This document shows, piece after piece, positions 1 through 63,977 of a stretch of DNA of 64,000 nt. The translations under genes and the position numbers were made by a program. Position 1 is the stretch's first letter. The number at the start of each line of letters is the position of its first letter. The stretch comes from Pontibacter actiniarum. Lineage in GTDB: Bacteria > Bacteroidota > Bacteroidia > Cytophagales > Hymenobacteraceae. The notes beneath the pieces were generated by a model. It was given only the letters and a program-made list of their open reading frames with translations, did not search any database and was not told the origin of the DNA. The stretch covers positions 1,550,001 to 1,614,000 of the forward strand of contig NZ_CP021235.1 of NCBI RefSeq assembly GCF_003585765.1, written 5' to 3'.

Positions 1-1613
1 AGGCTTCCTTCCACAGCAGGATTTAGCGTGCTGCCGAGTTTCACCAACTCTTCGGTGCTCATGCCATACGCGGTAGCTGGGTTACCCTCTCCTACAGGCA
101 CTTTGGCTTCGGTTAACATGGTGCCTGGATTGAACGTAGCTCCTTCGATAACTTCTCCCTTGGCATCGTAGGCAAGGCTCCCTAAAATAGACGACTGCAC
201 GACCGGTACCGTAGCGTCCGGCTCGTAGGCATCCACATCCGGGCCATCGTTCTTCTGCACATTTCCGGACACAATGGAGTTATACATGTTGACAGTGTTG
301 ATGCCTGACCTTCGGTAAATTCCGCCGCCCGGGCCGGCAATAGTGTTTCCGGTGATGGTGGTGTTGACGATGGTAACCATGTTATTGCTGTACAGCATCA
401 CACCGCCGCCCCCGTTTGCAGAAGTACTGCTGTTTCCGTTGATAAGGCAGTTTACCAGTAGTCCTTTGGAGTTCTCCCTGATGTAGAAAGCGGCACCAAA
501 CGACCGGCCTTTGTTGTCAGCCACCACCGTGTTATACATGTTGATCGTCGCCTCCGGGTAGCCGTGTACCCCAGCTGCGGTTCCGCCTTCATTCTCTCGG
601 ACCTCTGAATCATAGATATGAGCGGTAGACTCGCTGATCCAAACCCCGCCGGCGTTACCCGTTGAGATATTCCCGTTTATTTTGCTGTTCCTGATGGTTA
701 CCACTGACCCGCCAAAAGCATACAGGCCCGCCACGTTCTTATCCGATTTATTATCTACAACCTCGGTATTTAGCACTTCCACAACCGCGTTGCCGATGGT
801 AAGGCCACCGCCATAGTCTCTTCTGAAAGCAGTGCCGTTGATGGTGGCAGAGGTAGTGGCCGCAGCGGCTTTGCCGTCTGTAATTCGTAAGCCCTCCAGC
901 ACCACCTTCTGGCCGTCTGTTTTCGGGGCAGACACCGTGACGACGTGATAGGCCACCCCGCCGCCCGAAAGCACTGTTGTGTGTTGCGCAGGGTTTGCCT
1001 CAGCACCTTCCTCCGCATCGGCTGGATAGCCTCCCTTCAGCCTCACATACTTGCTGACTTCAAAAGTCACATCACCGGCATCGGCAGGGTCGCCACCTGT
1101 TACCGTTACAGTGGGCAGGTAGGCCCCCTCCGCTATGTGAATTGTGTTACCGCTTACCGCTATGGCCAGGGCATTGTCGAGGCTGGTGGCCTCGGCCCAG
1201 GAGTAGCCTTCTCCGGTCGCGCCCTCCTTCACATAGATATCATCCCGGTTGCCTGCCTCCTGCTTAACGGTAATCACTTTCTCCGTCGTGTCGTTTGTCA
1301 TGATTTTGATGGTACCAGTTCGGGCATCCTCCTCATTTGCCTGCACCTGGAAAGCGAGCGTCACCTTGCCTTTCTCGCCACTGGTTTCTTCCAGCACGAT
1401 CCAGTCAGCATCTGTTGCCGCCTGCCACGGTTGGTTCGTCAGGAACACAAGGGCATGCGAACTGCTGGTGTTCGCGACATCGAAGGCTTCGTTCTCCAGG
1501 AGTAACTTTGGCTCAAACGCTTCATCGTCCTCCTTACAACCCGACAGGTTTAGAAGTATAAGGGCTCCACATAAGAACCTTGTGATAAAATGAAGGTGTA
1601 TTTTTCTTTTCAT
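1..1613 (-). CDS. BACON-domain plus parallel beta-helix lipoprotein (C-terminus beyond the window)
   Basis: This reading frame starts at ATG 1613 and is still open at base 1, giving 537 visible residues; the C-terminus lies outside the window. Residues 1-22 form a lipoprotein signal ending in a lipobox (LNLSGC), so the mature protein should be a surface or periplasmic lipoprotein. Residues ~35-125 resemble a BACON domain, with conserved tryptophans, the stretch RTGTIKIM and a closing VKQEAG. The remainder is rich in Asn/Gly/Val repeats typical of right-handed parallel beta-helices (for example GGGIYRRSGINTVNMYNSIV). It is the last visible gene of the SusC/SusD operon, 61 bases after the epimerase-like gene. 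A role in binding or processing the imported glycan is inferred from context only. Confidence 0.75.
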   Translation of the reverse strand, partial: MKRKIHLHFITRFLCGALILLNLSGCKEDDEAFEPKLLLENEAFDVANTSSSHALVFLTNQPWQAATDADWIVLEETSGEKGKVTLAFQVQANEEDARTGTIKIMTNDTTEKVITVKQEAGNRDDIYVKEGATGEGYSWAEATSLDNALAIAVSGNTIHIAEGAYLPTVTVTGGDPADAGDVTFEVSKYVRLKGGYPADAEEGAEANPAQHTTVLSGGGVAYHVVTVSAPKTDGQKVVLEGLRITDGKAAAATTSATINGTAFRRDYGGGLTIGNAVVEVLNTEVVDNKSDKNVAGLYAFGGSVVTIRNSKINGNISTGNAGGVWISESTAHIYDSEVRENEGGTAAGVHGYPEATINMYNTVVADNKGRSFGAAFYIRENSKGLLVNCLINGNSSTSANGGGGVMLYSNNMVTIVNTTITGNTIAGPGGGIYRRSGINTVNMYNSIVSGNVQKNDGPDVDAYEPDATVPVVQSSILGSLAYDAKGEVIEGATFNPGTMLTEAKVPVGEGNPATAYGMSTEELVKLGSTLNPAVEGS

Positions 1614-1674
1614 GGGATTAGGCTGTTTATGCGTCAAAAGCGCCTGCCTTGCAGCGGTGCAGGGCAAACCACGT

Positions 1675-2637
1675 TTACTTGCTGTTGCTGTAGTTTTGGT
1701 AAAGCGACTGGTAGCACGGCATTAGGTCCTTCTCATCCTGATAGGCACTCTCATACATAAAAGGGCCTGTGTACTTCACCTCCTCCAAAGCGCCAAGTAT
1801 GGCCGTCCAGTTGTTCTTGCCCTCGCCTGAGCAAGGGAAAAAATGGTTCTCGGCCGCCCCTGTGCCATCAGCCACATGAATCGTCTTCAGCCGGCTTCCC
1901 ATTGCCTTGATCAGGGTTTCCGGGTTCTTGATATGGTTCATGTCTATAGCGGAATAAATGGTGGTGGGCAGCCTGGAGAAAATCTCCACTGTCTCTTCCA
2001 CGGAGCGCATCAGCGGTCTTTCTCTCCCATTGCCCGCCAGCAACTCGGGGCCCAGCATGTTCTCCAGCACCATGGTGGCGTTGATGGCCTGCACTGCTTC
2101 ATCCAGCGTGGTGGCCGACTTGATCAGCTGGCTTTTGCGCATGTCGCGCTCGTTTAGGCCCAGGTAATAGCTGGGGTGGAAAAGAATGACCTCCGGCTCC
2201 AGTATGCGCAGGAAAGTGATCAACTTTTGATGCATCGCCACTATGTCCTGCCGGTCCGCCTCGCTAACCGTGGAGAGGTCGATGCTCTGGCTGTACGGCA
2301 TGTGCACCGACCATACTTTAATGCCGGCTTCGTCCGCCGCTTTCTTTGCCTCTCTCAGCTTTTGCGTAACCTCCTCATCAGACATCTTGAAGTCTCTCCG
2401 GTCATCCACAAAAAGGCTCATTCCGGAGGCCTCCACATAGCTCACGCCTACAGATTTGGCATATGGGAGTTTCTCTTTTGTGAAATTGCCGATTGGCAGA
2501 CTGTAGCCGACCTTTAAGGGGGCTACCGGTGTTTCTTTAGCAGGCACATCGGGTGTTGGTTCCTCCTTACTGGAGTCGCAGCCGGTAAGGCATAGGGAGC
2601 AGGCAAGTAATATCGCTAGCATTTCGTTTCTTATCAT
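1675..2637 (-). CDS. sugar phosphate isomerase/epimerase-like TIM-barrel lipoprotein
   Basis: This is a 320-residue protein with a lipoprotein signal (ACSLCLTGC), followed by a Pro/Glu-rich linker and a xylose-isomerase-like (AP endonuclease 2) TIM barrel. Candidate metal ligands appear in the expected order: Glu in MVLENM, Asp/His in AIDMNH, His in TIHVADG and Glu in FMYES. The family isomerises or epimerises sugars or sugar derivatives, but a lipid-anchored copy outside the cytoplasm is less usual. It lies 12 bases after SusD and is surely co-transcribed. I infer that it modifies a released sugar in the periplasm or on the cell surface; the substrate cannot be read from the sequence. Confidence 0.75.
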   Translation of the reverse strand: MIRNEMLAILLACSLCLTGCDSSKEEPTPDVPAKETPVAPLKVGYSLPIGNFTKEKLPYAKSVGVSYVEASGMSLFVDDRRDFKMSDEEVTQKLREAKKAADEAGIKVWSVHMPYSQSIDLSTVSEADRQDIVAMHQKLITFLRILEPEVILFHPSYYLGLNERDMRKSQLIKSATTLDEAVQAINATMVLENMLGPELLAGNGRERPLMRSVEETVEIFSRLPTTIYSAIDMNHIKNPETLIKAMGSRLKTIHVADGTGAAENHFFPCSGEGKNNWTAILGALEEVKYTGPFMYESAYQDEKDLMPCYQSLYQNYSNSK

Positions 2638-19646: not shown

Positions 19647-20225
19647 ATGCTAATTCAGAATCAGGGGTTTTATTTAGAAGGCTTTGACTTTCCTGCTTTT
19701 ACTTTAAATCACGGGGAAATGGTAAGGTTTTGGGTGGAGGCGGCGCCACAATCCCAAACAGCCACTAACGGGAGTTGGGTGGCAAACAAAGTGATAGCGT
19801 CCATGCAGACCAGCCTACCAGGGGGAGAAAAAATAAGGCTTAGCCCAGCAAGGGTGAGAAGAAGTTTCTTCGACTTTATCCAACCTATAACATTAGAGGG
19901 TTACCTGAGAAGCAGATTAAACCTTGCTACACCAGCAATCTACGAAAGGCTCTCCTTCTTTAGCTTAGCACCTCAATGGAAGCTCAAAGACCTTGGATAC
20001 GCTCATCAAAAGATATTCGCCATTATTTGTGCGTTTCAAAGAGGAAGCATCGTTTGCTACGACTACTATGGACTTGCTCCAGAGAGTGAAGCTCAACTGA
20101 CAAACTATGTGAAGGCAGAACTAGGGCTGGGCAAATCAGCGGTAAGCTTTGATGACCTTTCCTACAAGCCAGAGAACCCTGACACGGAAAGAATAACAAA
20201 TCTGGATATTAGGCAGAGAAGATGA
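19647..20225 (+). CDS. hypothetical protein
   Basis: This is a 192-residue soluble protein beginning MLIQNQGFYLEGFDFPAFTL. I do not recognise a family. It has no signal peptide or membrane helix. The composition is mixed alpha/beta, with a central Arg-rich helix (LSPARVRRSFFDFIQP) and a following IFAIICAFQRGSIVCYDYYG strand pair. The phrase FAIICAFQRGSIVCYDYYGLAPESE superficially recalls the core of nucleotide-binding proteins, but no Walker motif is present. It runs in the same direction as the DUF2254 gene, 102 bases downstream. Confidence 0.6.
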   Translation: MLIQNQGFYLEGFDFPAFTLNHGEMVRFWVEAAPQSQTATNGSWVANKVIASMQTSLPGGEKIRLSPARVRRSFFDFIQPITLEGYLRSRLNLATPAIYERLSFFSLAPQWKLKDLGYAHQKIFAIICAFQRGSIVCYDYYGLAPESEAQLTNYVKAELGLGKSAVSFDDLSYKPENPDTERITNLDIRQRR

Positions 20226-20253
20226 AGGTAAAGAGAGTAACAGCTAAACGCCA

Positions 20254-20281
20254 GTCTTCGGCCAGTGACGCTGCCGAAGAC
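20254..20281. terminator. stem-loop between convergent genes
   Basis: A perfect 9-bp stem (GTCTTCGGC / GCCGAAGAC, loop of 10) lies between the converging 19647 gene and the Rrf2 gene. It lacks a T-tract, so it may stop transcription weakly or only protect mRNA ends. Confidence 0.4.
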
Positions 20282-20295
20282 ATTAAACACCGCTG

Positions 20296-20745
20296 CTAGA
20301 CCTCATCATGCACGTTCGTGATAAAGTACTTCCCTGTTTTGATGCTATCCACCAGGTCCTGGATCGTTTTAGTGCTAAATACTTTTAACAGATGGTCGCG
20401 GTAAGCTTTAATGTCGTTGTGCAGGGGGCACGGGTGCTTATCGGAGCATTGCTTCATGCCCATGCCGCACCTTTTAAAAGCTTCTAAGCCATCTATGGTG
20501 CGCACAATTTCCAGGATGCTGATATCATTGGCGGGGCGGTGCATGTAAAACCCGCCGCCGGGCCCTTTTGCCGAGGAGAAAACGTTTTTACGCACCAGGT
20601 CCTGTAATATTTTACCGATAAAGTGCACCGGCAGGTCCAGTTCTTTGGCAATCTCTTTTATTCCCACCTTGTGTCCGTCGGCATTGCCCATAGCAATGTA
20701 CACAACGGCCCGCAGGGCATACTCGGTAGTCTTGGACAGCATCAT
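20296..20745 (-). CDS. Rrf2-family Fe-S transcription regulator (IscR/NsrR type)
   Basis: This is a 149-residue protein. The winged helix-turn-helix (KTTEYALRAVVYIA, GIKEIAKELDLPVHFIGKIL, GPGGGFYMHRP) is a clear Rrf2 match. Cysteines at 93, 100 and 106 (C-x6-C-x5-C) can bind an iron-sulfur cluster, as in NsrR, which senses NO, and IscR, which senses cluster supply. It is the last gene of a minus-strand set with a MIP18-type assembly protein, an oxidase-like membrane protein, a DUF2249 protein and a hemerythrin. I favour an NsrR-like NO or Fe-S sensor, by context. A promoter and a palindrome lie directly in front of it. Confidence 0.88.
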   Translation of the reverse strand: MMLSKTTEYALRAVVYIAMGNADGHKVGIKEIAKELDLPVHFIGKILQDLVRKNVFSSAKGPGGGFYMHRPANDISILEIVRTIDGLEAFKRCGMGMKQCSDKHPCPLHNDIKAYRDHLLKVFSTKTIQDLVDSIKTGKYFITNVHDEV

Positions 20746-20753
20746 CTCATGTA

Positions 20754-20772
20754 TACGTACGTAGCAAAGATA
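20754..20772 (-). promoter_or_regulatory. Rrf2 gene promoter -7 element with overlapping palindrome
   Basis: The minus strand reads TATCTTTG at 20772-20765, a perfect TAnnTTTG -7 element. Just downstream, a 10-bp palindrome TACGTACGTA (20754-20763) covers the expected start site, 9 bases before ATG 20745. This position suits autorepression by the Rrf2 protein. No -33 element is evident. Confidence 0.5.
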
Positions 20773-21090
20773 CTAATTACTCCTGTTCAGTTGCCGCTTT
20801 CCTTCTTCACTGATCATGTCAGTTGTCCAGGGAGGCAGCCACACCAGCTCTACTGTAACCTCATACTGAGGGAAACGGTGTTGCAGGATCTGCTCAGCCG
20901 CCTTTAGGATGGTGCTGCTCATGGGGCAGCCCGGCGTGGTCAGGGTGAGCTCTACCTGCAGCTGGTTCTCTTTCAGGCGCACTAGGTAAACAAGGCCAAG
21001 GTCCACAATGTTAATCCCGATTTCTGGATCAATGATGTACCGGAGCGTGTGCCATACCTCCGGCTCTAGTTCAGGTGTTTGCGCTTCCAT
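20773..21090 (-). CDS. MIP18/DUF59 family iron-sulfur assembly protein
   Basis: This is a 105-residue single-domain protein of the SufT/PaaD/YitW type. Conserved features are DPEIGINIVDLGLVY near the N-terminus and LTTPGCPMSSTI with the invariant cysteine (~residue 62), ending in VWLPPWTTDMISEEGKR. Members help insert Fe-S clusters. The start codon overlaps the end of the oxidase-like gene by 20 bases, so translation is probably coupled. Together with the Rrf2 gene 27 bases downstream it suggests that this operon deals with Fe-S clusters damaged by NO. Confidence 0.88.
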   Translation of the reverse strand: MEAQTPELEPEVWHTLRYIIDPEIGINIVDLGLVYLVRLKENQLQVELTLTTPGCPMSSTILKAAEQILQHRFPQYEVTVELVWLPPWTTDMISEEGKRQLNRSN

Positions 21091-22378
21091 AGGTAAAAGG
21101 TTTTAAGTCATGTGCCCTGTGCAGTAGCAGTTGAAATACATTGGCCGTGTACAAGGATGCTGCAATGCTGAAAACAATACTTCCGGCAAGTATGAGTTGG
21201 CGCTGGCCTAAAAGCACGCCAGCTAACAGCATCACAAAACCTGCCAAATAGCTGATGTTTTGCCAGCGCAGCAACGTGTGGCTGTACAAGTCTTTCGGGA
21301 GCGGTGTTTTATACTTGCCCACGTGGTCTTCGTACGCATGCATCCAGACGATGAAGGGAAGCGTTTTAAACGTTTGCCCCAGTATGAGCGCCGTCACAAA
21401 GCCAAGGAACACCGAAATGCCATACACGAGGTAAAGGGAGAGCTGGAGCCCCTGCGGCAGCTTCAGATCGCTGCTCACGACAAACACCAGCACCAGGGGC
21501 AACAGCAGGAGAGCCAGGGCCACAAACGTCTGCTGCATGCCTAAGTCAACTTCTTTTCGCTGCATCGTTTTCCGGGCTTCCTGCAGGTAAGAGAGAAACA
21601 GCAACAGGCCTGCCGCTACAAGCCCGGCGTACAAAGGCAGCCAGCCGGTGTGCAGCAGCATGTGATCAACTATAAACAGCAGCAGTCCGCCATTGATCAG
21701 GTTGTAGGCCCAGTTGAGTTTGCGGGTGCCTTGCGGGTGCGCCAGCAGGAACATCGGGATTAGCTTAGCCCCAACCCCGATAATGAGGAGCAGGAACCAG
21801 CCCGCCATGCCAATGTGCGCGTGCAGCTTCAGGTAGTGCACATGCTCCTGGGGCAGAAAGGGATAGGTGAAGTTAAGGGCCATTAACACGCCAACCAAGC
21901 CGGTTACCAGCAGCCAGACAGCAGAGGTCACGATAAAGTCTGCCTCAATCGTCCACTTCGGTGCTTTCCGGGCTGTCTGGATGACGTTGATGTTAAACAG
22001 CAGAAAAGCGATCAACAGCAGGCAGGCGGCCAGGTGCATGGTCCAGCCTAGCTGGAAATACCAGAATGAATAGGCCAGCGAAATTGTGCCACTGCTCAAC
22101 AAGCCACAGGTATAAACGGCCAGTTTTTCACTATAGAGCCTGCACTCCAGCACCACCGGCAACAGCTGGTACAGCGCACCGAAAATAAGCATGGTGGCCC
22201 AGCCCAGTACGGCTACGTGTGTGAGCGTTAGCAGCTTTGGGTGGAAGTAGTGCCCCCCGAAAGCATCGGTAGAAAAAAGCAGCAGAACGCTCAGCGCCAT
22301 AAAAGAAAGGGCAGCAAAAGCGAAGTGCGGCAGCACGACCCATTTAGAAGGAGAGTTAGAAACAGTGGCGGTAGACAT
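21071..22378 (-). CDS. heme-copper-oxidase-like membrane protein of NO-response operons
   Basis: This is a 435-residue protein from ATG 22378 (MSTATVSNSPSKWV), with about twelve hydrophobic helices. Histidines stand in helix contexts that recall subunit I/NorB: LTLTHVAVLGW, HYLKLHAHIGMAGWF and VWMHAYEDHVG. The catalytic CuB/FeB ligand set of a real oxidase is not visible, and the protein is shorter than NorB. It starts four bases after the DUF2249 gene ends and overlaps the MIP18 gene, so it belongs to the same transcript. It may bind heme or copper and handle NO, as proposed for NnrS-type proteins. That function is inference. Confidence 0.65.
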   Translation of the reverse strand: MSTATVSNSPSKWVVLPHFAFAALSFMALSVLLLFSTDAFGGHYFHPKLLTLTHVAVLGWATMLIFGALYQLLPVVLECRLYSEKLAVYTCGLLSSGTISLAYSFWYFQLGWTMHLAACLLLIAFLLFNINVIQTARKAPKWTIEADFIVTSAVWLLVTGLVGVLMALNFTYPFLPQEHVHYLKLHAHIGMAGWFLLLIIGVGAKLIPMFLLAHPQGTRKLNWAYNLINGGLLLFIVDHMLLHTGWLPLYAGLVAAGLLLFLSYLQEARKTMQRKEVDLGMQQTFVALALLLLPLVLVFVVSSDLKLPQGLQLSLYLVYGISVFLGFVTALILGQTFKTLPFIVWMHAYEDHVGKYKTPLPKDLYSHTLLRWQNISYLAGFVMLLAGVLLGQRQLILAGSIVFSIAASLYTANVFQLLLHRAHDLKPFTYGSANT

Positions 22379-22382
22379 GGGT

Positions 22383-23201
22383 TTATACTTTATAGATGAG
22401 CAGGAAGACCTCACCCGGTTCAGCCTGTTGGATGGCCACGGCAAAACCGCGCTCCTGCAGCTTGGGCAGCAGGAACTGCGGCACTTGCCTGTGCGTCACA
22501 TAGAGGGCGGCACCTGCGGGGAGTGTCTCCAGGTGACTTAGAATAGACACCATCGGCTGCGGCATTTCCAGGTGGCGCACATCGAGGTGTACCAGCTTGC
22601 CCTCGTAGGCGTGCATAAGAGCCTTTAAATCAGCGGAAGCCGGTTCCTTTTCTGCAACGGCCTCCCCTACTTCCGTTAGGTGCTCCAGCCAAAAAAAAGT
22701 ATGCACCAGGTCCGGGCTTTGCTCCTCTGCATATGCGGCGTACCCTTTCTTTTTCAGGATGTCTATCAGAGGCGTAGGTTCAAAGGTGTTGATGAGCTGC
22801 AACGCATTGGAGCTATCCAGCCTGCCCACAGCGGCCATGATACGCAGAAACGGATCGTTACCCGTGGTTATATCCTCGCGCACGTCCAGCGTAAGCAGAT
22901 TTTCGGGGCGCAGTTGCTCCAGGTAAGCCGGTATCGCTACTACAGCAGCGGTTTGTTTTGCCGTGTTACCGGTGGCCGCACGAGGGCAAAAGCCCAGGGG
23001 CTCCAGTATCCGGTAAAAATCCTCTTCCGAACACCCGCCGATGCGAGCGGCGTCGGCAACGGTTACACGCGAGGCCAGCACCTTTCTCAGCAGGGGGTTG
23101 CGCAGCTTCTCAAAATGCCTGTTGATAGAGGCAATGGCTTCTATCGCCGCAGGGTTGGCCTTCAGAATAGCCGATATCTTTGTGTTGGCAGCTATTTCCA
23201 T
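22383..23201 (-). CDS. DUF1858-DUF2249-DUF2249 protein
   Basis: This is a 272-residue soluble protein. Residues 1-75 look like a DUF1858/ScdA-N type helical domain (ISAILKANPAAIEAIASIN, GFCPRA). Two DUF2249 (SirA/TusA-like) domains follow: ~95-165 (LLTLDVREDITTGNDPF) and ~200-272 (LVHLDVRHLEMPQPMVSIL, ending VFLLIYKV). The same module occurs in the N-terminus of the RIC protein at 23911. Functions of DUF2249 are not established; its fold is shared with sulfur carriers. It overlaps the upstream hemerythrin gene by 10 bases. Confidence 0.8.
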   Translation of the reverse strand: MEIAANTKISAILKANPAAIEAIASINRHFEKLRNPLLRKVLASRVTVADAARIGGCSEEDFYRILEPLGFCPRAATGNTAKQTAAVVAIPAYLEQLRPENLLTLDVREDITTGNDPFLRIMAAVGRLDSSNALQLINTFEPTPLIDILKKKGYAAYAEEQSPDLVHTFFWLEHLTEVGEAVAEKEPASADLKALMHAYEGKLVHLDVRHLEMPQPMVSILSHLETLPAGAALYVTHRQVPQFLLPKLQERGFAVAIQQAEPGEVFLLIYKV

Positions 23202-23701: not shown

Positions 23702-23715
23702 GTGGTTTCTCTTTT

Positions 23716-23905
23716 AGGATCAGGATTTTTAGGATGGGAAAGGATGGGCAGGATTGATTTAGCTAGTAAATGATTTTTCTGATTTGTGGCAGATAAGGCG
23801 CTTGCAGGCGCTGCGCACAAACGAAATCAACTTAAAGTCATCAAATCATTTCAAACCAAAACAGAAAATCCTGCCCATCCATAAATCCAGTAAATCCTGA
23901 TTCAG
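23716..23905. repeat. long imperfect inverted repeat between ric and the hemerythrin gene
   Basis: The left side (23716-23772) and the right side (23842-23905) are reverse complements in pieces: GGATGGGCAGGATT/AATCCTGCCCATCC (14 bp), ATCAGGATTT/AAATCCTGAT (10 bp) and AAATGATTT/AAATCATTT (9 bp). This AGGATTT-rich type of intergenic repeat can fold into one long hairpin. It may separate the two transcripts. Confidence 0.7.
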
Positions 23906-23910
23906 ATGAA

Positions 23911-24867: not shown

Positions 24868-24933
24868 GTTGAATTCTTTTATGTATATCAGGTTTAAATC
24901 ACTGATGTAAAAGTATAAAGCGCACTTTAGAAT

Positions 24934-24975: not shown

Positions 24976-25049
24976 TTTTTCGGTTTAACATAAGGCAGTT
25001 TTAGGTCTTGATTTTTCCTTTACTATATATAAGAAACCTATCCTGCCGT

Positions 25050-28000
25050 ATGACAAAGCATACACCTCCCCTTCCAAAGGGTATCTCCATCAACAGAAAG
25101 TTTACCTCTCCGCAGCAGTCGCCCTACGACATGTTCCGCTACGAGCTCCGCTCCTCTACCATTCGCAACCCTTCCGGCGATGTAGTGGCAGAGCTTAAAG
25201 ACGTGGAAGTACCAGCGCAATGGTCGCAGATAGCCACCGATATACTCGCACAGAAATACCTGCGCCGCGCCGGTGTGCCACAGCCGGAAAGCAGCACCGG
25301 TGCTGAAAGCTCTGTGAAGCAAGTGGTGCACCGGCTGGCAAATTGCTGGCGCACCTGGGGCAGTAAGTATGGCTATTTTGCAAGTGAGGCAGATGCGCAG
25401 GCATTTTATGATGAGCTGGTGTACATGCTGCTGGGGCAATATGCGGCGCCAAACTCTCCGCAGTGGTTTAATACCGGGCTCCATGCCTCTTATGGCATCA
25501 CAGGCCAGGCACAGGGGCATTATTATGTTGATCCCGAAACAGAGGAGCTCAAAGAGTCTGGCTCTGCGTTTGAGCGACCACAACCACACGCCTGTTTTAT
25601 ACTTTCGGTGCAGGATGATTTAGCTAACAAAGGCGGCATTATGGACCTACTGGTGCAGGAGGCGCGCATTTTCAAGTATGGCTCGGGCGTGGGCACCAAC
25701 TACTCTGCCATCCGGGGCAAAGATGAGGTTCTTTCCGGTGGTGGCACCTCTTCGGGGCTGATGTCCTTTTTACGTGTAGGCGACCGTGCAGCCGGAGCTA
25801 TTAAATCTGGAGGCACTACACGCCGGGCCGCTAAAATGGTGAGCCTCGACCTGGACCATCCCGAGATAGAGGCTTTTATCAACTGGAAAAAAGAGGAAGA
25901 AAAGAAAGTAGCCGCCCTGATTGCCGCTGGATATTCCGCTGACTATGAAGGGGAGGCTTACGCTACTGTATCGGGACAAAACTCAAATAACTCGGTGCGT
26001 GTACCCAACAGTTTTTTTGAAGCGCTGCACCAGAATGCGCCCTGGCACCTGACCGCCCGCACCGATGGCAGCACGTTAAAACAAGTGCCTGCCCACGACT
26101 TATGGCAACAGATTGCAGAGGCAGCTTGGGCCTGTGCCGACCCGGGCGTACAGTTCGATACCACGATAAACGAGTGGCATACCTGCCCGGCAGAAGGACC
26201 GATAAAAGGCTCCAACCCCTGCTCCGAGTACATGTTCCTGGACGACACTGCCTGTAACCTCGCCTCGCTGAACCTGCTCCGCTTCTACAACCAAGAGCAG
26301 CAGGAATTTGATGCAAATGCCTTTGAACACGCCTGTCGCCTCTGGACGGTGGTGCTGGAGATATCGGTGCTGATGGCGCAGTTCCCATCCGAGGCAGTGG
26401 CGCAACGCTCCTACGACTACCGCACCATTGGGCTGGGTTATGCTAACTTGGGTGCATTGCTCATGGTACAGGGCCTGCCTTACGACAGCGACCAGGCGCG
26501 CGCCGTGGCAGCTGGCATTACTTCGCTGATGACAGGCACGGCTTACAAAACTTCCGCAGAAATGGCCGCTGCATTAGGTGCTTTTGCCAAGTATGCACCT
26601 AACCGGGAGGCTATGCTGCGCGTAATTCGTAATCACCGCTACACGGCCTATAACCAACCTGACAAGTATGAGCATCTAAGTATAAAACCTGTTGGCCTGA
26701 AACATGATCTGTGTCCGCCAAACTTACTGGCAGCCGCACAGCAGGCGTGGGACAAAGCGCTACAACAGGGCGAGAAGTATGGCTTCCGCAATGCGCAGGC
26801 CACTGTTATCGCCCCCACCGGCACTATCGGGCTGCTGATGGATTGTGATACCACGGGCGTGGAGCCGGACTATGCACTCGTAAAGTATAAAAAGCTTTCG
26901 GGCGGTGGCTATTTCAAAATCATCAACCAGTCTATCCCGGCAGCACTCCAAAAACTAAAGTATACTTCTGATGAAATACAGTCCATTGTAAACTACGCCA
27001 AAGGCCACGCTACGCTGAAAGGGGCACCGCATATCAACCCAGAGGCACTGCTCCAGCGAGGGTTGCTGCCGGAAGAGCTGGAAAAGCTTGAAGCAGCTAC
27101 ACCTTCTGCCTACGATGTAAATACGCTTTTTCATGCGTATACTTTAGGTGATAACTGCCTGCAACGGCTTGGTTTTGCCCCTGTGCAATACCAGCATCCA
27201 GACTTTAACCTGCTATGCCAGCTTGGCTATACACTTAAGCAAATAGAGGAGGCCAACGACTACGTCTGCGGCACCATGACGGTGGAAGGCGCTCCTTTTC
27301 TGAAGCCGGAGCACTATGCTGTCTTCGACTGTGCCAACCGCTGCGGCAACAAGGGTACGCGCTTTATCAAGGCCGATGGACATATACAGATGATGGCAGC
27401 AGTACAGCCTTTTATTTCCGGGGCCATTTCGAAAACCATAAACCTGCCAAACGAAACGACAGTAGCCGAGGTAGCACAATGCTATGAGCGTTCTTGGGAA
27501 CTGGGGCTAAAAGCCTGCTCCCTTTACCGCGATGGAAGCAAACTTTCGCAGCCACTTACTTCTAAGAGCAGCTCTTCGGGAGAAGAAGCAGCGGAAGCCA
27601 CCATTACAACAGAAACCGCGACCAATGCAGAGCAGGTGCTTCAGGCAGCCAAAGCCATACTTGCAGGAGCCGGCAACCAGAACTTCCGCCAGCAGCTTAC
27701 CGCTATGGTGGAGCGCCATAAACTGCCAGATAAACGCAAAGGCTTTACACAAAAGGCTAAGATTGATGGACACACGGTTTACATCCGCACCGGCGAGTAC
27801 ACTGATGGTTCTTTGGGCGAGGTGTTTATTGATATGTACAAAGAAGGTGCTTCGTTCCGCTCCATCCTTAACTGCTTTGCAATTGCTGTGTCTTTGGGGC
27901 TACAGTATGGCGTGCCGCTGGAAGAGTATGTCAGCCGCTTTACCTTTACCCGCTTTGAGCCTGCCGGACGCGTGGAGCACCCTAACATCAAGTCTGCCAC

Positions 28001-28331
28001 TTCGGTGTTTGACTACCTGTTCCGCCTGCTCGGCTACGAGTACCTGAACCGCACCGACCTGGTGCATGTGCAGCAAGAGAAAGATGCACAGGATGATGTT
28101 CCGTCTGCCTTTTCTGCATCACTGACAACACCTCCAGAAAAGCCTGTACTAAAAGGTACAGAGTATAAAGTGGTATCGCAGAGCAAAACACTGCTGATGG
28201 AGCAAACGCAGCAGGTGCTGGCGAACATGATGGGCGATGCTCCTATCTGCAATACCTGCGGCCACATTACCATCCGCTCTGGAACATGCTATAAATGCCT
28301 GAACTGCGGCAATAGCCTCGGGTGCAGCTAA
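25050..28331 (+). CDS. nrdJ: adenosylcobalamin-dependent (class II) ribonucleotide reductase
   Basis: This is a 1093-residue protein from ATG 25050 ([18 protein letters not shown]). It makes deoxyribonucleotides with a B12-generated radical and needs no oxygen. Visible landmarks are [12 protein letters not shown] (N-terminal domain), the catalytic region [40 protein letters not shown] and [14 protein letters not shown]. A DUF2492/TSCPD-like segment follows ([19 protein letters not shown]), then a C-terminal zinc-ribbon with CNTCGH and CYKCLNCG, ending in a cysteine. The length fits the large NrdJ type and there is no intein. It is divergent from ric and shares its regulatory dyad, which suggests use under NO or low oxygen. 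No B12 riboswitch is seen in the short leader. Confidence 0.95.
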   Translation: [1093 protein letters not shown]

Positions 28332-31977: not shown

Positions 31978-31979
31978 GG

Positions 31980-34352: not shown

Positions 34353-36380
34353 TTAAGCTTTTGGCTTTTTGGCACCTGTTGAGAAGGCCAGCGGTACTTT
34401 AGATCCTTTTGGAGATACCTTGATATAGCCTTGCATTTCCTGGTGCAGCGCAGAGCAGAAGTCGGTGCAATACATCGGGATGATACCTGCTCTTTGTGGC
34501 ACCCACTTCAGGGTTTGGGTAGCACCTGGCATCACCAGCAACTCGGCATTGTTGTTACCCATGATCGCGAAGCCGTGCGGCACGTCCCAGTCTTGCTCCA
34601 GGTTTGTCACGTGGAAGTATACTTCGTCGCCCACGTTTATACCTTCAATGTTATCCGGTGTCAAGTGGCTTCGGATGGCGGTCATGTACACGTGTACCTC
34701 GTTGCCTTTGCGCTCAACTCGAGCTTCTTTCTCATTTTTGGCAGCATAAGGATGGCTGTTCTCTTCCAGGCTATACATCTTCACGCTGTTCGGAGCAATC
34801 TTCTTCGCCTCAATGGCTTGGGCGTAGTGCGGTTCACCGATAGTCGGGAAGTCGAGCAGGAGCTTCATTTTCTCGCCGCTGATGTCAATCAATTGGGCAG
34901 ATTGCGCCAGTTCAGGACCAGTTGGCAGGTAGCGGTCTTTGGTGATTTTGTTCATGGCGATCAGGTACTTGCCATAAGGCTTCTTCGTATCGCCGCCAGG
35001 TATCACTAAGTGACCAACTGAGTAGTACACCGGAATTCTGTCTTTTACCTGCAGGTCTTTCAGCGTCCATTTCACGATCTCAGAAGACACGAACATAGAA
35101 GAATAAGCATTGCCCTTATCGTCAAACTCGGTGTGCAACGGTCCTAAGCCCGGCTCTTTCACCTCCCCCTGTAGTACAGACTCGTAGCGCAGAATCGGAA
35201 TGCCACCCACGTTGCCAATGAAGTCTTTCTTCTCAATAGTCTTCAGCATTTTAGAGAAAGAGTGCACCGGAATAACAGAGGCCAGCTTACCACTCACCAC
35301 CATGTATTCACCTGTTGGGTCTACGTCGATGCCGTGTGGTGATTTAGGAACCGGAATCAGGTACATCAGGCCAGGGCAATCTTCCGGACGAAGGATTCTA
35401 ACAGTCTTCTTGATCTCAGACTTGGCGATATGTGATTTCTCATCCAGCTTGTTGTGGTAGTAGTAGGCAGGCATTTCTTTCGCTTTGCCTTCTTTGGCAT
35501 ACTTTACAGCCAGCTTCCAGTTAATTGCCGCCAGGTAATCTTTGTCGTTTTGTGAGGCACCAATTTCTTTCAGGGTATTGGCTTGCTCCGTGTTGTAAGT
35601 GGTAAAGAAAACCCAGTCAGAAGATGGGCCTTTGCCACCGTTAGCCAGGTCATAGTCGAAGCCAGGCACCAGAATCTGGAAGTCCAGGTCCATGTCGCCA
35701 TGCTCTTTGTCTACTTTGATGAAGGAGATGGAGCCTCTGAACTTTTCTTTGTATTCATCAAAGTTCACGTCCTCATACTTGCCATCTCCCTCCACGTTGA
35801 TCGGCACACTAAAGCGGGTACCGGCCAGCACGTACTCGTTGTCATTGGTGGGGTAAGGAGAGCAGTGGTTACCGGCACTGTTCGGGATCTCAAGGATCTC
35901 AGCTGTCTCAAATGTTTTCAGGTCGAGACGGGCGACACGTGGCGTGTTGTTGGCGTTCACGAACAGCCAGCGGCCGTCTGTCATACCTGCGGCACGCGAG
36001 AGTTTCGGGTGGTGCAAATCATCCCAGGGCACAAAACCGAAGGAGGTGTTCAGCATGGCCTTGGTTTCTTCGTTGTAGCCGTAGCCGTTCTCCGGATTCT
36101 GCGAGAACACCGGCACCACTTTCAGCAGCCTGCCGGACGGTACGCCATACACGGCCACCTGGCCGCTGAAGCCACCAGACATAAACGTATAAAGCTCATC
36201 ATGCTGGCCAGGGGCCACATACACTTTGGAGGCGGCATCGCCGGCAACACCGGAAACAAGGGCAGCTGCCTCGCTGCTTTCGGTGCTGCTACAGCCCTGC
36301 AGCATGGCCCCGGCTGCCACTGCCATCAGCAGGGCGGCCTTTGGGGCTGATTTTCGAACTTTGTTGAATACAGTTTCCAT
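34353..36380 (-). CDS. nosZ: nitrous oxide reductase, clade II, Sec-exported lipoprotein type
   Basis: This is a 675-residue enzyme that reduces N2O to N2 in the periplasm. The N-terminus has a Sec/lipobox signal (AGAMLQGC) instead of a Tat motif, which defines clade II. All seven CuZ histidines can be found: the pair in DDLHHPK, then GNHCSP, SPHGID, PLHTEF, VGHLVI and EPHYAQ. The CuA site is complete (VPHGFAIM, CTDFCSALHQEMQG). The gene heads the nos genes, 30 bases after a cytochrome c gene on the same strand. The promoter is presumably at the dyad near 37070. Confidence 0.97.
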   Translation of the reverse strand: METVFNKVRKSAPKAALLMAVAAGAMLQGCSSTESSEAAALVSGVAGDAASKVYVAPGQHDELYTFMSGGFSGQVAVYGVPSGRLLKVVPVFSQNPENGYGYNEETKAMLNTSFGFVPWDDLHHPKLSRAAGMTDGRWLFVNANNTPRVARLDLKTFETAEILEIPNSAGNHCSPYPTNDNEYVLAGTRFSVPINVEGDGKYEDVNFDEYKEKFRGSISFIKVDKEHGDMDLDFQILVPGFDYDLANGGKGPSSDWVFFTTYNTEQANTLKEIGASQNDKDYLAAINWKLAVKYAKEGKAKEMPAYYYHNKLDEKSHIAKSEIKKTVRILRPEDCPGLMYLIPVPKSPHGIDVDPTGEYMVVSGKLASVIPVHSFSKMLKTIEKKDFIGNVGGIPILRYESVLQGEVKEPGLGPLHTEFDDKGNAYSSMFVSSEIVKWTLKDLQVKDRIPVYYSVGHLVIPGGDTKKPYGKYLIAMNKITKDRYLPTGPELAQSAQLIDISGEKMKLLLDFPTIGEPHYAQAIEAKKIAPNSVKMYSLEENSHPYAAKNEKEARVERKGNEVHVYMTAIRSHLTPDNIEGINVGDEVYFHVTNLEQDWDVPHGFAIMGNNNAELLVMPGATQTLKWVPQRAGIIPMYCTDFCSALHQEMQGYIKVSPKGSKVPLAFSTGAKKPKA

Positions 36381-37107: not shown

Positions 37108-37127
37108 AACCTGAAAAGAGAAGAGAA

Positions 37128-38478: not shown

Positions 38479-38565
38479 ACCAAAGTGCAGGTGCAGGTGG
38501 TTTGATTTGCCACCTGCACCTGACTTGGCTCACTTCCAAGTAATCAACATCCAATCTATATTATC

Positions 38566-40869: not shown

Positions 40870-40934
40870 TGACTACGGCCACCAAAAGCTAGACATGGTT
40901 TAGTGCTGTGAACGTGCAAACTTGATACGGAACG

Positions 40935-40965
40935 CCCCGGCTACACAGCCGGGGTTTTCTGTTTT
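40935..40965 (+). terminator. intrinsic terminator of the nor transcript
   Basis: An 8-bp GC stem CCCCGGCT/AGCCGGGG with an ACAC loop is followed by TTTTCTGTTTT. It lies 66 bases after norB. The remaining gap to nirK (40966-41812) holds the right complex repeat and the nirK regulatory sites. Confidence 0.92.
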
Positions 40966-41096
40966 ATACTTCCTGGCATCGTGCTGCTGTAGTTTGTGGT
41001 TACCGGACCCAACCCTCCCTTCCCCTCCTTAGCCAAGGCGGGGAATCTGTAGATGCCATTTTAGAAGTATAAGTACTGTAGTCAGTGGTGTTCAGC

Positions 41097-41575
41097 GGAC
41101 AAGTCGCGATCTGTCCCTACAAAGCAGTTTCAGGAACCGCCTCAGCTTTGGCTACTGAAAACTTATCCAGTCTTTCCGTTGAGCGCCTATGCGAGTTTTT
41201 CCGGTGACGAGCGCGAGCGAGGCAGCCCGAGGCACGAGTAAGAGGGCCCCTACCCCCGGCAGGAAAAGCTCCAAGCGCGATGCGGGAAGACGAGCCCTCG
41301 CGGGCATGAGCGCCCCAGAGCAAGAGGTGAAACGATAGGTATGTGTAAGCTGGAGGATGAACGGGAGCTAACAAAGATAGCTTGGTAGAAGATGCATCAG
41401 CAGAAGCAGCTATAGAAGTATAGCCAAGGCAGTAGCAGGTGTGGCTTTGTAAGCCAGTCGAGTTGCAAACTCGACACTATAGTAGGACACAAGTCTGAAG
41501 ACTTGCGCCAGCAGGGGACTATGGAAGTACAAACAGAGGCAGTCTAAGGCACAAGCGGACGCTTGCGCCAGGCAA
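41097..41575. repeat. complex intergenic repeat, right copy (inverted relative to 29826-30375)
   Basis: Read in plus orientation this copy shows GGACAAGTCGCGATCTGTCC, GTTGAGCGCCT, AGCGCGATGCGGG, GAGCGCC...GCAAGAGGTGAAAC, TAGGTATGTG, AGCTGGAGGATGAAC, and then GTGGCTTTGTAAGCCAGTCG with the GTCGAGTTGCAAACTCGAC palindrome. ACAAGTCTGAAGACTTGCGCCAG and a last GCACAAGCGGACGCTTGCGCC follow. All of these are the reverse complement of, and in the matching order with, the left copy. The spacer between the GGCGCTCAAC and CGCGAT blocks differs strongly, so the copies are old or modular. Confidence 0.8.
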
Positions 41576-41717
41576 TTTAGAAAAAGCAACGGGGTGAAGT
41601 ATGGCTTTTCAAAACAGGTTAGTTGCAAACTCAATACCTCAAGCATATATAAACAAACGCTTACACCCACAGTTGCCTTACTATCCAAAACCTCCTTTCA
41701 TACTTCCAAATACCTTA

Positions 41718-41753
41718 GTGACGAAAATCACCGCTGCACATGACCTGCATCAT
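41718..41753 (+). promoter_or_regulatory. tandem Crp/Fnr-type dyads upstream of nirK
   Basis: GTGA-CGAAAA-TCAC (41718-41731) and ATGA-CCTGCA-TCAT (41740-41753) are both TGA-N6-TCA dyads, with centres 22 bp apart (two helical turns, same DNA face). TATTTAGC at 41777-41784 is a weak -7 candidate at the expected distance from the second site. nirK starts at 41813. Confidence 0.65.
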
Positions 41754-41812
41754 AAAATAAGAGAGCTCGACATCCTTATTTAGCATTATCAATTCTACCA
41801 CACCTATACGTC

Positions 41813-43288
41813 ATGAAAAGGTTATCCATCACCCAGACAGTACAGACACTCGCCATAGCTATTTATTGTGCGGGTATCCTCAGCTCTTGTAGCACAAAGA
41901 CAACAGAAGCAGAAAAAGTCCTAACCTCCGGCACGGCCACGCCTAAAGAGCTGCCTGTATTAGAGGCGCAGTTAACTGACGCACCGAATGTACCAGCCCC
42001 CATCACCCGCAAGCACGCTGCGAAGGTAGTGGTGCGCCTGGAGGTAACCGAAGTCGTAAAGAAGCTGGCCGATGGTGTGGATTATACTTTCTGGACCTTT
42101 GGTGGCTCAGTGCCGGGTAAGTTTATCCGTATCCGACAGAACGATGAGGTAGAGTTTCACCTCATGAACCACCCCGACAGTAAGAACCCGCACAACATAG
42201 ACCTGCACGCCGTTACTGGCCAGGGCGGTGGCGCGGCCTCCACTTTTACAGCACCCGGTCACGAAACGGTGTTCTCTTTTAAAGCGCTGAACCCAGGCCT
42301 GTACGTGTACCATTGTGCCACCGCGCCGGTGGGTATGCACATCGCCAACGGTATGTACGGGCTTATACTTGTGGAGCCGGAAGAAGGGCTGCCAGCGGTA
42401 GATAAAGAATACTACGTGATGCAAGGCGACTTCTACACCAAGGGAGGTTTTGGCGATGCTGGCCTGCAGCCGTTCGACATGGGCAAAGCCCTGAACGAAG
42501 ACCCGACCTATGTAGTGTTTAACGGTTCTGTGGGTGCCTTGAACGGTGAGAATGCCCTTACCGCCAAAACAGGCGAAACTGTACGCCTCTTTGTAGGCAA
42601 CGGTGGTCCTAACCTGGTATCTTCTTTCCACGTGATCGGTGAAATCTTCGACAAAGTATACACCGAGGGTGGCTCTAAAGCAAACGAGAACGTGCAGACT
42701 ACCCTGGTGCCTGCCGGTGGCGCTGCTATCACAGAGTTTAAAACCGATGTACCGGGCAGCTATATTCTGGTAGACCACTCTATCTTCCGAGCCTTCAATA
42801 AAGGCGCGCTGGGCATGCTGAAAGTGGAAGGACCAGAAAATAAGGACATTTACTCTGGTCAGATTCTTGACAAAATATACTTACCAGAAGGTGCTACCAT
42901 ACAGGAAATGCCGCTGGCAAAAGCTCCTGCTGCACCTGTGGCCGCCAACAAAGACCAACGACTGGCACTTGGCAAAACAGTGTTTGCTCAAAACTGCCAG
43001 GCCTGCCACCAAGCCGAAGGCCAGGGTATAAAAGGAGCCTTCCCTCCGCTTGCTAAATCTGACTACCTGAATGCAAACGTAGACAGAGCCATCGGTGTAA
43101 TTGCCCATGGCTTGGAAGGACAGATAAAAGTAAACGGCGAACTGTACAACAGCACTATGCCAAAGCTTAAACTGACTGACGAAGAGATTGCCAACGTGAT
43201 GACCTTCGTACTGAACAGCTGGGGCAACAAAGGTGGCGAGGTTACCACCCAACAGGTAGCCAAGGCAAAGGCCAGCAACAAGCACTAA
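41813..43288 (+). CDS. nirK: copper nitrite reductase NirK with C-terminal cytochrome c domain
   Basis: This 491-residue protein reduces nitrite to NO. A lipoprotein signal (AGILSSC) anchors it in the periplasm or outer face. The two cupredoxin domains (~60-350) have all copper ligands: type 1 His in PHNIDLH, and Cys-His-Met in [16 protein letters not shown]. The type 2 histidines are in [14 protein letters not shown] and VDHSIF. Residues ~385-475 form a class I cytochrome c (CQACH, distal Met in NSTMPKL) fused to the C-terminus, so electrons can be delivered within one chain. It is preceded by tandem regulatory dyads and followed 11 bases later by a nirV-like gene. Confidence 0.96.
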
Positions 43289-50538: not shown

Positions 50539-51147
50539 CTACATGGTGAAGACTTTTTCGCGGCTACTGAGGTACTCGTTTTCCACCACCTCATCGTGCG
50601 GCTCGCTTTGCTCAAACTCCTGCAGCTTTCTGTGGAAGCCCTCGCTGTCTTTGATGATGGCGATGCGGGCGCTGCGCACAAACTCAATCAGGCCGTAGGG
50701 CTCCAGCACCCTGAGCAGGTTGTCTGTTTCCTCCCGGTGGCCGGTGGTTTCGAACACGGTGTAGTCCTTCCGGATCACCACCGCGCGGGCCCCATTCTCC
50801 CGCAGCAGGCGCTCCACCACGGCACGCTCGGCAATGACGTCGGTAGGCACCTTGTAAAGCGCCATCTCCTGCCAGACCACGTCCTGGTTAGTGTTAAAGT
50901 ATACTTTCAGCACGCCCACCTGCTTCTCTATCTGCCCGGCAATCTTGCGCACCGTTTCCGCTGTTTCTGTCATCACGATACTGAAGCGGTGGATACCCTC
51001 AACTTCGGAGGGAGACGTGTTAAGGCTCTCCACGTTGATCTTTCTCCGGGAGAAAATGATGGCGATACGGGTGAGGAGCCCGATGTGGTTTTCGGTGTAC
51101 ACCGTGATGTTGAACTCCTCTTTTTGGGTATGGTTCTCATTACGCAT
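50539..51147 (-). CDS. ilvN: acetolactate synthase small (regulatory) subunit
   Basis: This is a 202-residue protein with an N-terminal ACT domain (TVYTENHIGLLTRIAIIFSRRKINVESL) and a C-terminal regulatory domain. It binds the catalytic subunit and gives feedback inhibition by valine. It is 23 bases downstream of ilvB. The symbol ilvH would be equally justified. Confidence 0.95.
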   Translation of the reverse strand: MRNENHTQKEEFNITVYTENHIGLLTRIAIIFSRRKINVESLNTSPSEVEGIHRFSIVMTETAETVRKIAGQIEKQVGVLKVYFNTNQDVVWQEMALYKVPTDVIAERAVVERLLRENGARAVVIRKDYTVFETTGHREETDNLLRVLEPYGLIEFVRSARIAIIKDSEGFHRKLQEFEQSEPHDEVVENEYLSSREKVFTM

Positions 51148-62855: not shown

Positions 62856-63026
62856 GAGTTAAAGTATAATAGTGAAACGAAAACCAGAACGACCAGACCA
62901 TAAAGGGATTCTGGTCGAAGTCTGGGGTGTAAAACGCACCCTCTCTGTAAGAGGGCCGGGCGGTACAGAAAGTACCATTACCTCGCGTTTAAGATGATGT
63001 TTGTGAAGCTGCCTTAGCGCCCCATG

Positions 63027-63977
63027 CTACCGCACAGCCGCGACCAGCCTTTCAATTGCCCTGCTTAGGGCTGTATCTTGTTTGACCAGCCAGTTAAAGA
63101 GCAGGATGCCGGTGGTGGCGCACGTAATGCCGGCCAATACATCCAGCACATAGTGGTGCGAAGTATAAACCGCCGCAAACCAGATACCTACTGTAATGAT
63201 CCCAAAGACAACCTTCGCAGCTATACTTAAGTTATTTCTCAGGGCATAGTAAAGCACGATCAGCGGATAGGCCGAGTGCAGGGACGGCATGGCCGCGAAC
63301 ACGTTGGAGCCTTTCGCATAGAGGGCGTTAAAAATGGTAATTCCGAAGAACCCGTCGAACCGGGATAAGCCTGCTGTATTGCCAGGGGTTTTGGCGATAA
63401 AATCAAACCCGTGCAACTGTACGTACCAAGGAGGTGCCGCCGGATAAAGGTAGTACACGACAAAGCCCAGCAGGTTTACCAGCAAAAAAGTAAGCAGAAA
63501 GTGAACGAACTGCCTTCTGTTTCTGAAAAACCAGAAGAAGGCAAAGCCGATCGGCACCGGAACCCAGGTCAGGTAAAAGGCCCCGCTCATTACATCCAGA
63601 AACGGGTGGCTGTGCTGCAGCCAGAACTCGTTTGGCGTAAGTATAACCCCGCCGCTCTCCACGCCAAACCAGGCTTTCTCCGCCATGTACAGGCTTTCGA
63701 TGTGCACCGGGTTAAACCAGTAGTTCGGGAAAGCCTTCATGTAATCATACAGGATCCAGAAAACGACGAAAATAGAGAAGCCTGTGATAAACTTGCGCGT
63801 GATGGGCCTAAGGAAGTACAGCAGGTTTATAAGCCCCACCAACACCAGCTGGTCCGTTTTAAAGCCAACCAGCAGGTAAGACAGCAGCAGGTAACCAACG
63901 GATAGCGCCGCCAGCACCAGCACAGCCTTGCGGGTAATGCCCTTCTTCTCCCCTGCCGCCGTAGCCGTTACACTCAT
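63027..63977 (-). CDS. PAP2/Aur1-like membrane phospho-transferase
   Basis: This is a 316-residue protein from ATG 63977, with about seven membrane helices. The lipid-phosphatase motifs are MPSLHSAYPLIV (PSxH) and YTSHHYVLDVLAGI (SHHx3D). The arrangement and length fit the Aur1/Ipt1-like PAP2_3 group, which moves phospho-head groups onto ceramide or diacylglycerol. Sphingolipid makers are common in this phylum, so a sphingolipid role is plausible but unproven. Confidence 0.8.
   Translation of the reverse strand: MSVTATAAGEKKGITRKAVLVLAALSVGYLLLSYLLVGFKTDQLVLVGLINLLYFLRPITRKFITGFSIFVVFWILYDYMKAFPNYWFNPVHIESLYMAEKAWFGVESGGVILTPNEFWLQHSHPFLDVMSGAFYLTWVPVPIGFAFFWFFRNRRQFVHFLLTFLLVNLLGFVVYYLYPAAPPWYVQLHGFDFIAKTPGNTAGLSRFDGFFGITIFNALYAKGSNVFAAMPSLHSAYPLIVLYYALRNNLSIAAKVVFGIITVGIWFAAVYTSHHYVLDVLAGITCATTGILLFNWLVKQDTALSRAIERLVAAVR

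Follow-up and report, generated by a model that had tools for sequence, protein, structure and literature searches.

Comparison with described DNA words

The DNA uptake sequences (DUS) of the Neisseriaceae occur in eight dialects that share a constant CTG core; they are bound by ComP, a minor pilin of the type IV class, and their effect on uptake is proven (PMC3630211). Here we describe a word of similar behaviour, AAGTATA (TATACTT on the opposite strand), in a 64-kb stretch of DNA (C1:1550001-1614000, referred to as the window) from a 4.97-Mb, two-contig genome (G000), most of whose nearest named relatives, judged by NrdJ, belong to Pontibacter. On balance, we regard NNN-TAT[A/G], the general form of this word, as a genome-wide word specific to species groups, likely serving to label self DNA that relatives take up or exchange. 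Judged by analogy, the Neisseriaceae dialects are its closest parallel. Like the DUS (PMC3630211), the Pontibacter word is short and asymmetric, is present in thousands of copies, varies in dialect along the species tree and is absent from some relatives, and both words combine variable flanking bases with a constant core, CTG in the one and TAT[A/G] in the other. The two differ in phylum, in evidence, the Pontibacter word being known from genome sequence alone, and in machinery, as the search of 50 Pontibacter genomes recovered no complete pilus ATPase.

More than one type of uptake signal sequence (USS) exists within the Pasteurellaceae. The resemblance of the USS to the Pontibacter word lies in being a genome-wide short word tied to competence; it is a different word with no sequence relation, and it is linked to pilus-type competence (PMC1626085, PMC12616744). 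The highly iterated palindromes (HIP) of cyanobacteria reach 1000-2000 copies per Mb and include alternate types with matching methylases (PMC4390886). Like HIP1, the Pontibacter word is highly iterated, at about 1-2 per kb, and has replacement types in some species. HIPs are palindromic, GC-rich and tied to methylases (PMC4390886), whereas the Pontibacter words are mostly asymmetric and AT-rich, and PF01555, the one methylase family searched, does not track them.

Within the same phylum, natural transformation has been described in Riemerella (PMC8459023, PMC7965970, PMC8383284). Eight genes are reported to be essential for it, including those for ComEC, DprA and an HHH protein, none of them described as a pilus gene; the HHH protein contains three HHH stretches (PMC8459023), the same make-up as that of the HHH protein in the window genome. 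R. columbina preferentially takes up its own DNA, and the candidate words listed for it are A/T-rich k-mers alone, with no clear uptake word (PMC7965970). A DUF5689-family protein, one of a pair of Riemerella surface proteins, is reported to be essential for transformation; the family was not found in the window genome, where the partner was not searched for.

Set beside these systems, the Pontibacter word shows the both-strand excess, the independence of codon use and the dialects around a constant core that mark DUS and USS, and it occurs in genomes with ComEC and DprA; a type IV pilus with a word-binding minor pilin was not recovered (PF00437 search, 50 genomes). It is not a palindromic, GC-rich word of the HIP kind (three palindromic sites in the window; AAC words often overlap as a palindrome), and it shows no orientation bias with replication direction of the Chi or KOPS kind. 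Because an effect on uptake is a proposal here and the pilus motor of the known members was not found, we do not file the word as an uptake sequence, despite its DUS-like behaviour.

The word in the window

The window contains 69 copies of AAGTATA (41 on the forward and 28 on the reverse strand, with starts from 1554 to 63639), against Markov expectations of 4.8 at order 1 and 7.9 at order 2. A sequence-only reading of the window had given about 67 copies, a slightly low count, against about 8 for a random 7-mer. The top 6-, 7-, 8- and 9-mers at both orders are AAGTATA or its extensions. The extended form AAGTATAAA, for which more than 20 copies against about 0.5 had been reported, is present 24 times against 0.7 expected, and the palindrome AAGTATACTT was located at all three positions given for it, 26958, 34615 and 50897. 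AAGTATG is also above expectation (38 vs 9.4), and the word is therefore better written AAGTAT[A/G]. An order-5 Markov count, proposed in the same reading and run here on the window, yields an expectation of 57, which carries little information because the model is built from the 6-mers of AAGTATA itself; longer forms of the word are no outliers in the window at orders 5 and above.

The words are densest between 20 and 48 kb, as had been noted, with 41 copies in 28 kb against 28 in the remaining 36 kb. The susCD genes (2-8.9 kb) contain three copies, at 3801, 4640 and 5003, not the single copy reported. Copies in nrdJ fall in different frames as claimed, one of them (ATA-CTT) starting at 25598 instead of 25595. 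The features are as follows.

1554..63645, both strands: field of 69 AAG-dialect words AAGTATA, core AAGTAT[A/G] (69 against 7.9 expected at order 2)
AAGTATA starts, forward strand, first part: 1554, 4640, 5003, 8982, 9748, 11195, 11743, 12589, 19571, 24911, 26678, 26883, 26958, 28499
AAGTATA starts, forward strand, second part: 28850, 29175, 30745, 30899, 30952, 32653, 33634, 33747, 34615, 41065, 41416, 42654, 43586, 44474
AAGTATA starts, forward strand, third part: 44645, 46025, 47139, 47385, 48186, 50897, 52227, 56198, 59573, 62835, 62862, 63161, 63639
AAGTATA starts, reverse strand, first part: 3801, 9710, 11774, 16210, 16792, 21310, 22384, 25598, 26961, 27138, 32186, 32552, 33189, 33771
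AAGTATA starts, reverse strand, second part: 34618, 37575, 40175, 40965, 42083, 42364, 42876, 45703, 47659, 50900, 56071, 60133, 61373, 63222
25008..28331, forward strand: nrdJ (class II ribonucleotide reductase), anchor of the 40-species tree and the site-by-site comparison
25598..25604, reverse strand: word in nrdJ, read xxT-ATA-CTT
26678..26684, forward strand: word in nrdJ, read xxA-AGT-ATA (frame from the listed nrdJ start, 25008)
26883..26889, forward strand: word in nrdJ, read AAG-TAT-A
26958..26967: palindrome AAGTATACTT, two overlapping opposite-strand words, in nrdJ
27138..27144, reverse strand: word in nrdJ, read TAT-ACT-T
34615..34624: palindrome AAGTATACTT, two overlapping opposite-strand words, in the nos_propeller gene
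50897..50906: palindrome AAGTATACTT, two overlapping opposite-strand words

Genome-wide abundance, codon use and placement

The whole window genome contains 4,114 copies of AAGTATA (2062 and 2052 on the two strands) against 352 copies of the reversed word (177 and 175). For closer analysis, 304 kb of the chromosome were sampled in 13 stretches, window included. All 13 carry words, with 277 copies in total against 33.1 expected (8.4-fold), and the reversed word falls under expectation (10 vs 19.1). On the second contig (204 kb), which is likely a replicon of its own, 80 copies stand against 30.1 expected (2.7-fold; a single contig, its plasmid status assumed). Its 20-kb stretches are uneven, with 1.0 per kb in 20001-40000, 0.55-0.60 in the two of 140001-180000 and 0-0.35 in the other eight. 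The word-densest of these stretches (C2:20001-40000; L313) contains the single PF01555 methylase match of the genome.

The word might be a functionless by-product of codon, dinucleotide or AT-tract bias. Synonymous codons were permuted within each gene, which preserves the proteins and the per-gene codon use, and such shuffles still yield 37.1 in-gene copies (standard deviation 5.1) in the window-genome sample; 199 are observed. Results from other species are similar, with 392 vs 44.8 in other AAG species, 381 vs 44.8 in AAC species and 359 vs 32.5 in AGG species (dialects are named by the left triplet), so that the excess over shuffles is 5- to 11-fold and extends to all allowed frames. In the genes of the 304-kb sample the word occupies six of six phases and both strands, and for the 8-mer AAGTATAA the sole empty phase is the one that creates an in-frame stop. 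Density is 1.80 per kb in spacers and 0.75 per kb in genes of this sample; the between-gene density is two- to three-fold higher in the AAG and AAC sets and 1.5-fold higher in the AGG set. Apart from the copies left in shuffles, only a slight protection of permuted words (z 2.6) speaks for a by-product, and with third bases inside words protected as well (see below) this explanation is refuted, its chance being practically negligible. The exclusion of codon preference and of a peptide motif in the sequence-only reading is thereby borne out, codon or dinucleotide bias being ruled out by the excess over synonymous shuffles and a peptide motif by the use of all stop-free frames.

A Chi-like word, one that directs recombination by AddAB/RecBCD, would also be short, frequent, species-specific and located within genes. 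The comparison of replication strands, another proposal of the earlier reading, revealed no replication-orientation bias among the 277 sampled copies (59:50 at positive and 81:87 at negative GC skew; Fisher p 0.39), which rules out an oriented word of the Chi/KOPS type; strand unevenness among the 13 stretches has a p of 0.056. Word densities of about 0.9-4 per kb across genomes, plus dialects inside one genus, would be extreme for Chi, and we consider a Chi-like role very unlikely.

Words were also observed in tandem; examples are a run of ten AGGTAT units in G010 and one of five words in G013. Runs with a one-base overlap, a 6-bp period and up to ten units are located at L253:12109-12267, L297:3409-3468 and L304:14733-14763.

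Dialects across the genus and the family

The genus set comprises 50 genomes assigned to Pontibacter by NrdJ. A comparison of related genomes, as the sequence-only reading had suggested, indicates that the word is genus-wide with species-dependent dialects, which rules out a single fixed word for the genus. AAGTATA ranges from 786 to 11,818 copies per genome in 36 congeners and is near control (at most 1.8-fold) in 22 genomes of other families in the order. Many AAGTATA-poor congeners use another word, AGGTATAG or AACTATAG. To call dialects, every NNN-TAT[A/G] word was counted with correction for codon use, over 15-68 kb of gene sequence in each genome and 161 kb in that of the window. What differs from dialect to dialect is the left triplet; the right half, TAT[A/G], stays the same.

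AAG dialect, 19 of 50 genomes: G000, G001, G004, G006, G007 (weak), G008, G012, G013, G014, G019, G020, G021, G029, G031, G034, G035, G108, G118, G146
AAC dialect, 4 of 50: G018, G030, G130, G144
AAG and AAC together, 5 of 50: G022, G026, G032, G074, G095
AGG dialect, 12 of 50: G003, G005, G009, G010, G011, G015, G016, G017, G028, G125, G133, G139
ATA dialect, 1 of 50: G060 (ATATATA 51 vs 6.4, ATATATG 45 vs 8.6)
GGG dialect, 1 of 50: G036 (20 vs 3.7 and 21 vs 4.3)
Ambiguous call, 1 of 50: G002
No word in the NNN-TAT[A/G] scan, 7 of 50: G023, G024, G025, G027, G033, G141, G147 (ARSTATAR ratios 0.95-2.0)

ARSTATAR, which covers AAG, AAC and AGG with ATA and GGG outside, was scored as a ratio against its reversed control. 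The ratio is 0.95 to 15.8 in the 50 genus members and at most about 1.4 in 110 genomes from other genera of the family; among 394 other genomes of the class sample the highest value read is about 2.5 (G347). The 'poor' set used for the ARSTATAR ratio, genome size and the ComEC tree includes G060 and G036, both with words of their own.

The nrdJ tree of 40 species, which does not include G016, unites the 11 other AGG genomes in a single clade (100% support) and places the ATA species G060 as sister to the window species (98% SH-aLRT). The five dialect labels require 9 changes on this tree, compared with 22.4 in shuffles. In these labels G060 is counted as wordless while carrying its own ATA word, as it is in the wordless set of the synonymous shuffles (G060, G025, G147, G027 and G023), and G074 is counted as AAC, here, in the shuffles and in the sister and switching tests, while carrying AAG too.

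The top word of G025 and G147, AATTATTC, was rejected as a word of the NNN-TAT[A/G] kind, 40 of 42 copies being intergenic. It is found in a repeated intergenic element, AATTATTC-N-AATGAAA (L116, L250, L298 and L308 in G025; L129, L251, L299 and L309 in G147), which looks like a regulatory or repeat element. The word AGGTAGAG of G027 is partly tandem and 3.2-fold over shuffles. Median genome size is 5.8 Mb in the 10 genomes with an ARSTATAR ratio below 3, against 4.6 Mb (p 3e-6, descent ignored); two of these 10 larger genomes carry another dialect.

Word specificity, conservation and dialect switching

The 8-mer core is enriched 33-fold in AAG, 65-fold in AAC and 38-fold in AGG species, against 0.9-3.8, 0.5-9.4 and 0.3-8.3-fold, respectively, for single-base variants at positions 1-6. 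Tolerant positions are 7, where A may change to G (3.5-8.2-fold), and 8 (up to 16-fold). The final G at position 7 is least tolerated in AAC (3.5-fold; AAG 8.2, AGG 5.9), and at position 8 the AAG word is enriched 32.9-fold with A, 14.2-fold with G and 7.9-fold with C. Between sister species, identity is elevated over 7-9 word positions and is back to baseline one or two bases outside. Head-to-head AAC words are common (in 180 kb, 75 pairs on opposite strands lie no more than 6 bp apart), and the 10-mer list of L001 and L002 is headed by AACTATAGTT, the overlapping head-to-head AAC form.

Conservation was compared in 14 sister pairs for whole words and in 13 for third bases, some species being common to several pairs. 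Of 494 aligned words, 349 are preserved in the partner genome, against 1442 of 3187 permuted words (odds ratio 2.9). Synonymous-site conservation inside copies, which the sequence-only reading had wished to see examined, is pronounced. In codons with an unchanged amino acid, the sister has an identical third base at 767 of 856 positions inside words, where the rate for these codons outside words predicts 548.2 (90% vs 64%, z 17.9); the controls gave 1868 of 2685 against 1812.8 for permuted words and 12 of 23 against 15.1 for reversed words. Third bases within words are protected, and therefore it is the DNA sequence that is kept, not the protein alone.

Dialects also interconvert at the same sites. 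With the six remaining letters kept, and the same change elsewhere (2.4-4.9%) as background, AAG and AAC replace each other about 4-17 times more often than background, with p < 0.01 in six of eight tests and 0.05 and 0.08 in the others. AAGTATA of G029 corresponds to AACTATA in G018 at 4 of 9 sites (vs 4.9%), and AACTATA of G018 to AAGTATA in G029 at 4 of 5 (vs 4.7%). The switch is seen at 6 of 20 sites from G095 to G074 (vs 2.6%) and at 6 of 33 in the opposite direction (vs 2.4%), at 2 of 17 (p 0.08) and 2 of 5 (p 0.0075) for G034/G022, and at 3 of 21 (p 0.05) and 3 of 4 (p 0.0004) for G020/G026. Switching between AAG and AGG was found for G013/G017, at 3 of 6 sites (p 0.03) and 3 of 5 (p 0.004).

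The same data bear on a site for a nucleoid or chromosome-organising protein, held by selection chromosome-wide and with clade-dependent specificity. Words on 13 of 13 chromosome stretches and on both strands, the sharp footprint, the protected synonymous bases and a second contig that is poorer, as under an addressing system it might be, are consistent with such a site. A change of specificity, however, would demand changes at thousands of sites, seven species are wordless, and the tandem arrays look driven rather than spaced. Known systems of this type (matS, SBS and KOPS) have far fewer sites or show a strand or regional bias. We regard this explanation as unlikely.

Competence genes and search for a reader of the word

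ComEC (PF03772) and DprA (PF02481) are encoded in all 50 genomes, the seven wordless ones included. The HHH_3 family is likewise present in all 50, and the HHH protein has an open frame of 304-346 aa in 49, being broken in G021. In that genome comEC, dprA and the HHH gene contain stops (L249, L311 and the dprA match), and in G009 comEC and dprA are broken; words are still present in both, a pattern which suggests a likely recent loss of competence. Neighbouring frames in G021 are mostly intact. At the comEC locus 5 of 7 other aligned frames are stop-free (one exception is short and doubtful, the other has 3 stops, perhaps from a misread start), and at the HHH locus 10 of 11.

A full pilus/secretion ATPase (PF00437) was not found in the 50 genomes; other pilus genes were not searched. 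The best match per genome covers about 50-65 of 370 positions at no more than 25.9 bits, and 3 of 50 lie just above the 24.9-bit cut-off. Any receptor must therefore differ from known pilus-based systems.

The methylase family PF01555 occurs in 31 of 50 genomes. It is present in 4 of the 10 genomes with an ARSTATAR ratio below 3 and absent from 13 of the 40 with a ratio of at least 3, all four AAC genomes included (other methylase families were not searched). PF01555 methylases are ruled out as partner of the word, since their occurrence does not track it, and this weakens a HIP1-like explanation, by which a word-specific methylase and/or mismatch repair makes and mends words, a change of enzyme brings a new dialect, and uptake plays no role. 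Cyanobacterial HIPs are similarly dense, with alternate types and matching methylases (PMC4390886), Pontibacter words spread by substitution and are protected, AAC words often stand head to head, and ATATAT is itself palindromic, all in line with this explanation. The AAG, AGG and GGG words, however, are non-palindromic, no dialect is GC-rich, and AAG prefers A or G at position 8, where a palindrome would need C. A HIP1-like origin is a minor possibility.

Two further observations concern competence-related proteins. G032 (L256) and G095 (L210) are nrdJ sisters with about 90% DNA identity, but their ComEC proteins are widely separated on the ComEC tree, which would fit an exchange of one of the two. 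DUF5689 proteins of about 413-450 aa are found in 12 of 50 genomes (L160-L171); at the five of these 12 loci that were inspected, the neighbours resemble, by eye, SusD, TonB-receptor or nuclease-type genes, and loci of this kind possibly serve for feeding on DNA or phosphate.

Proposed explanation

The dialects, the protected synonymous bases, the poorer second contig and the universal competence genes favour an uptake-type self-tag. Among the explanations listed in the sequence-only reading, an uptake sequence is the one favoured here; a bare mutational bias is insufficient because it leaves the slower loss of existing words unexplained. Under an uptake-type self-tag, a surface receptor other than a type IV pilin would prefer fragments carrying the word of the group. 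Fragments taken up would recombine, word-bearing alleles would replace wordless ones, and words would accumulate and persist through molecular drive. Accumulation by uptake and recombination has been modelled for proteobacterial uptake words. An altered receptor specificity for the NNN half would shift the dialect and isolate the lineage, and the five two-word genomes may represent transitions between dialects. We give roughly even chances to the wider proposal of a pilus-free Pontibacter self-recognition code with at least five dialects (AAG, AAC, AGG, ATA and GGG), a non-pilin receptor class and species in mid-switch.

Several results weigh against an uptake role. Competence of Pontibacter is here a prediction from gene content (50 genomes). 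In the seven wordless genomes (G023, G024, G025, G027, G033, G141 and G147) the frames of comEC, dprA and the HHH gene are intact, and therefore the word does not track these genes. The surroundings of comEC (20 genomes), of the HHH gene (11) and of dprA (9) yielded no recognisable receptor. DUF5689, present in 22 of 50 genomes and not found in that of the window, does not track the word and is not supported as its recogniser. Conversion between AAG and AGG is not significant in six of eight tests (few comparisons), and no carry-over from AAG to ATA was seen, as 0 of 25 AAGTAT[A/G] sites of the window species are ATATAT[A/G] in G060. The ATA and GGG dialects are represented by one genome each, and spacers are no richer in the GGG word than genes are (1 GGGTATA in 9.5 kb). 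Cyanobacterial HIP words likewise switch type between species (PMC4390886), and therefore dialects alone are no proof of uptake.

A limited search of the open-access literature turned up, among the titles listed, no description of the Pontibacter word AAGTATA. To our knowledge, dialects of uptake words have been described in two proteobacterial families, both of them pilus-bearing. If the self-tag explanation is true, genome-wide DNA self-tagging would have evolved again, with other machinery, in a Bacteroidota genus without a pilus motor; sister species with different words would give the hunt for the receptor a comparative design, and the origin, spread and change of such words would become directly testable. 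Even without uptake, protected synonymous bases and switching dialects amount to a strong, unexplained genome-wide constraint.

Other genes in the window

The genes at 34353-43288 of the window encode nos_propeller, NorB and multicopper-oxidase/cytochrome c domains and likely form a denitrification cluster.

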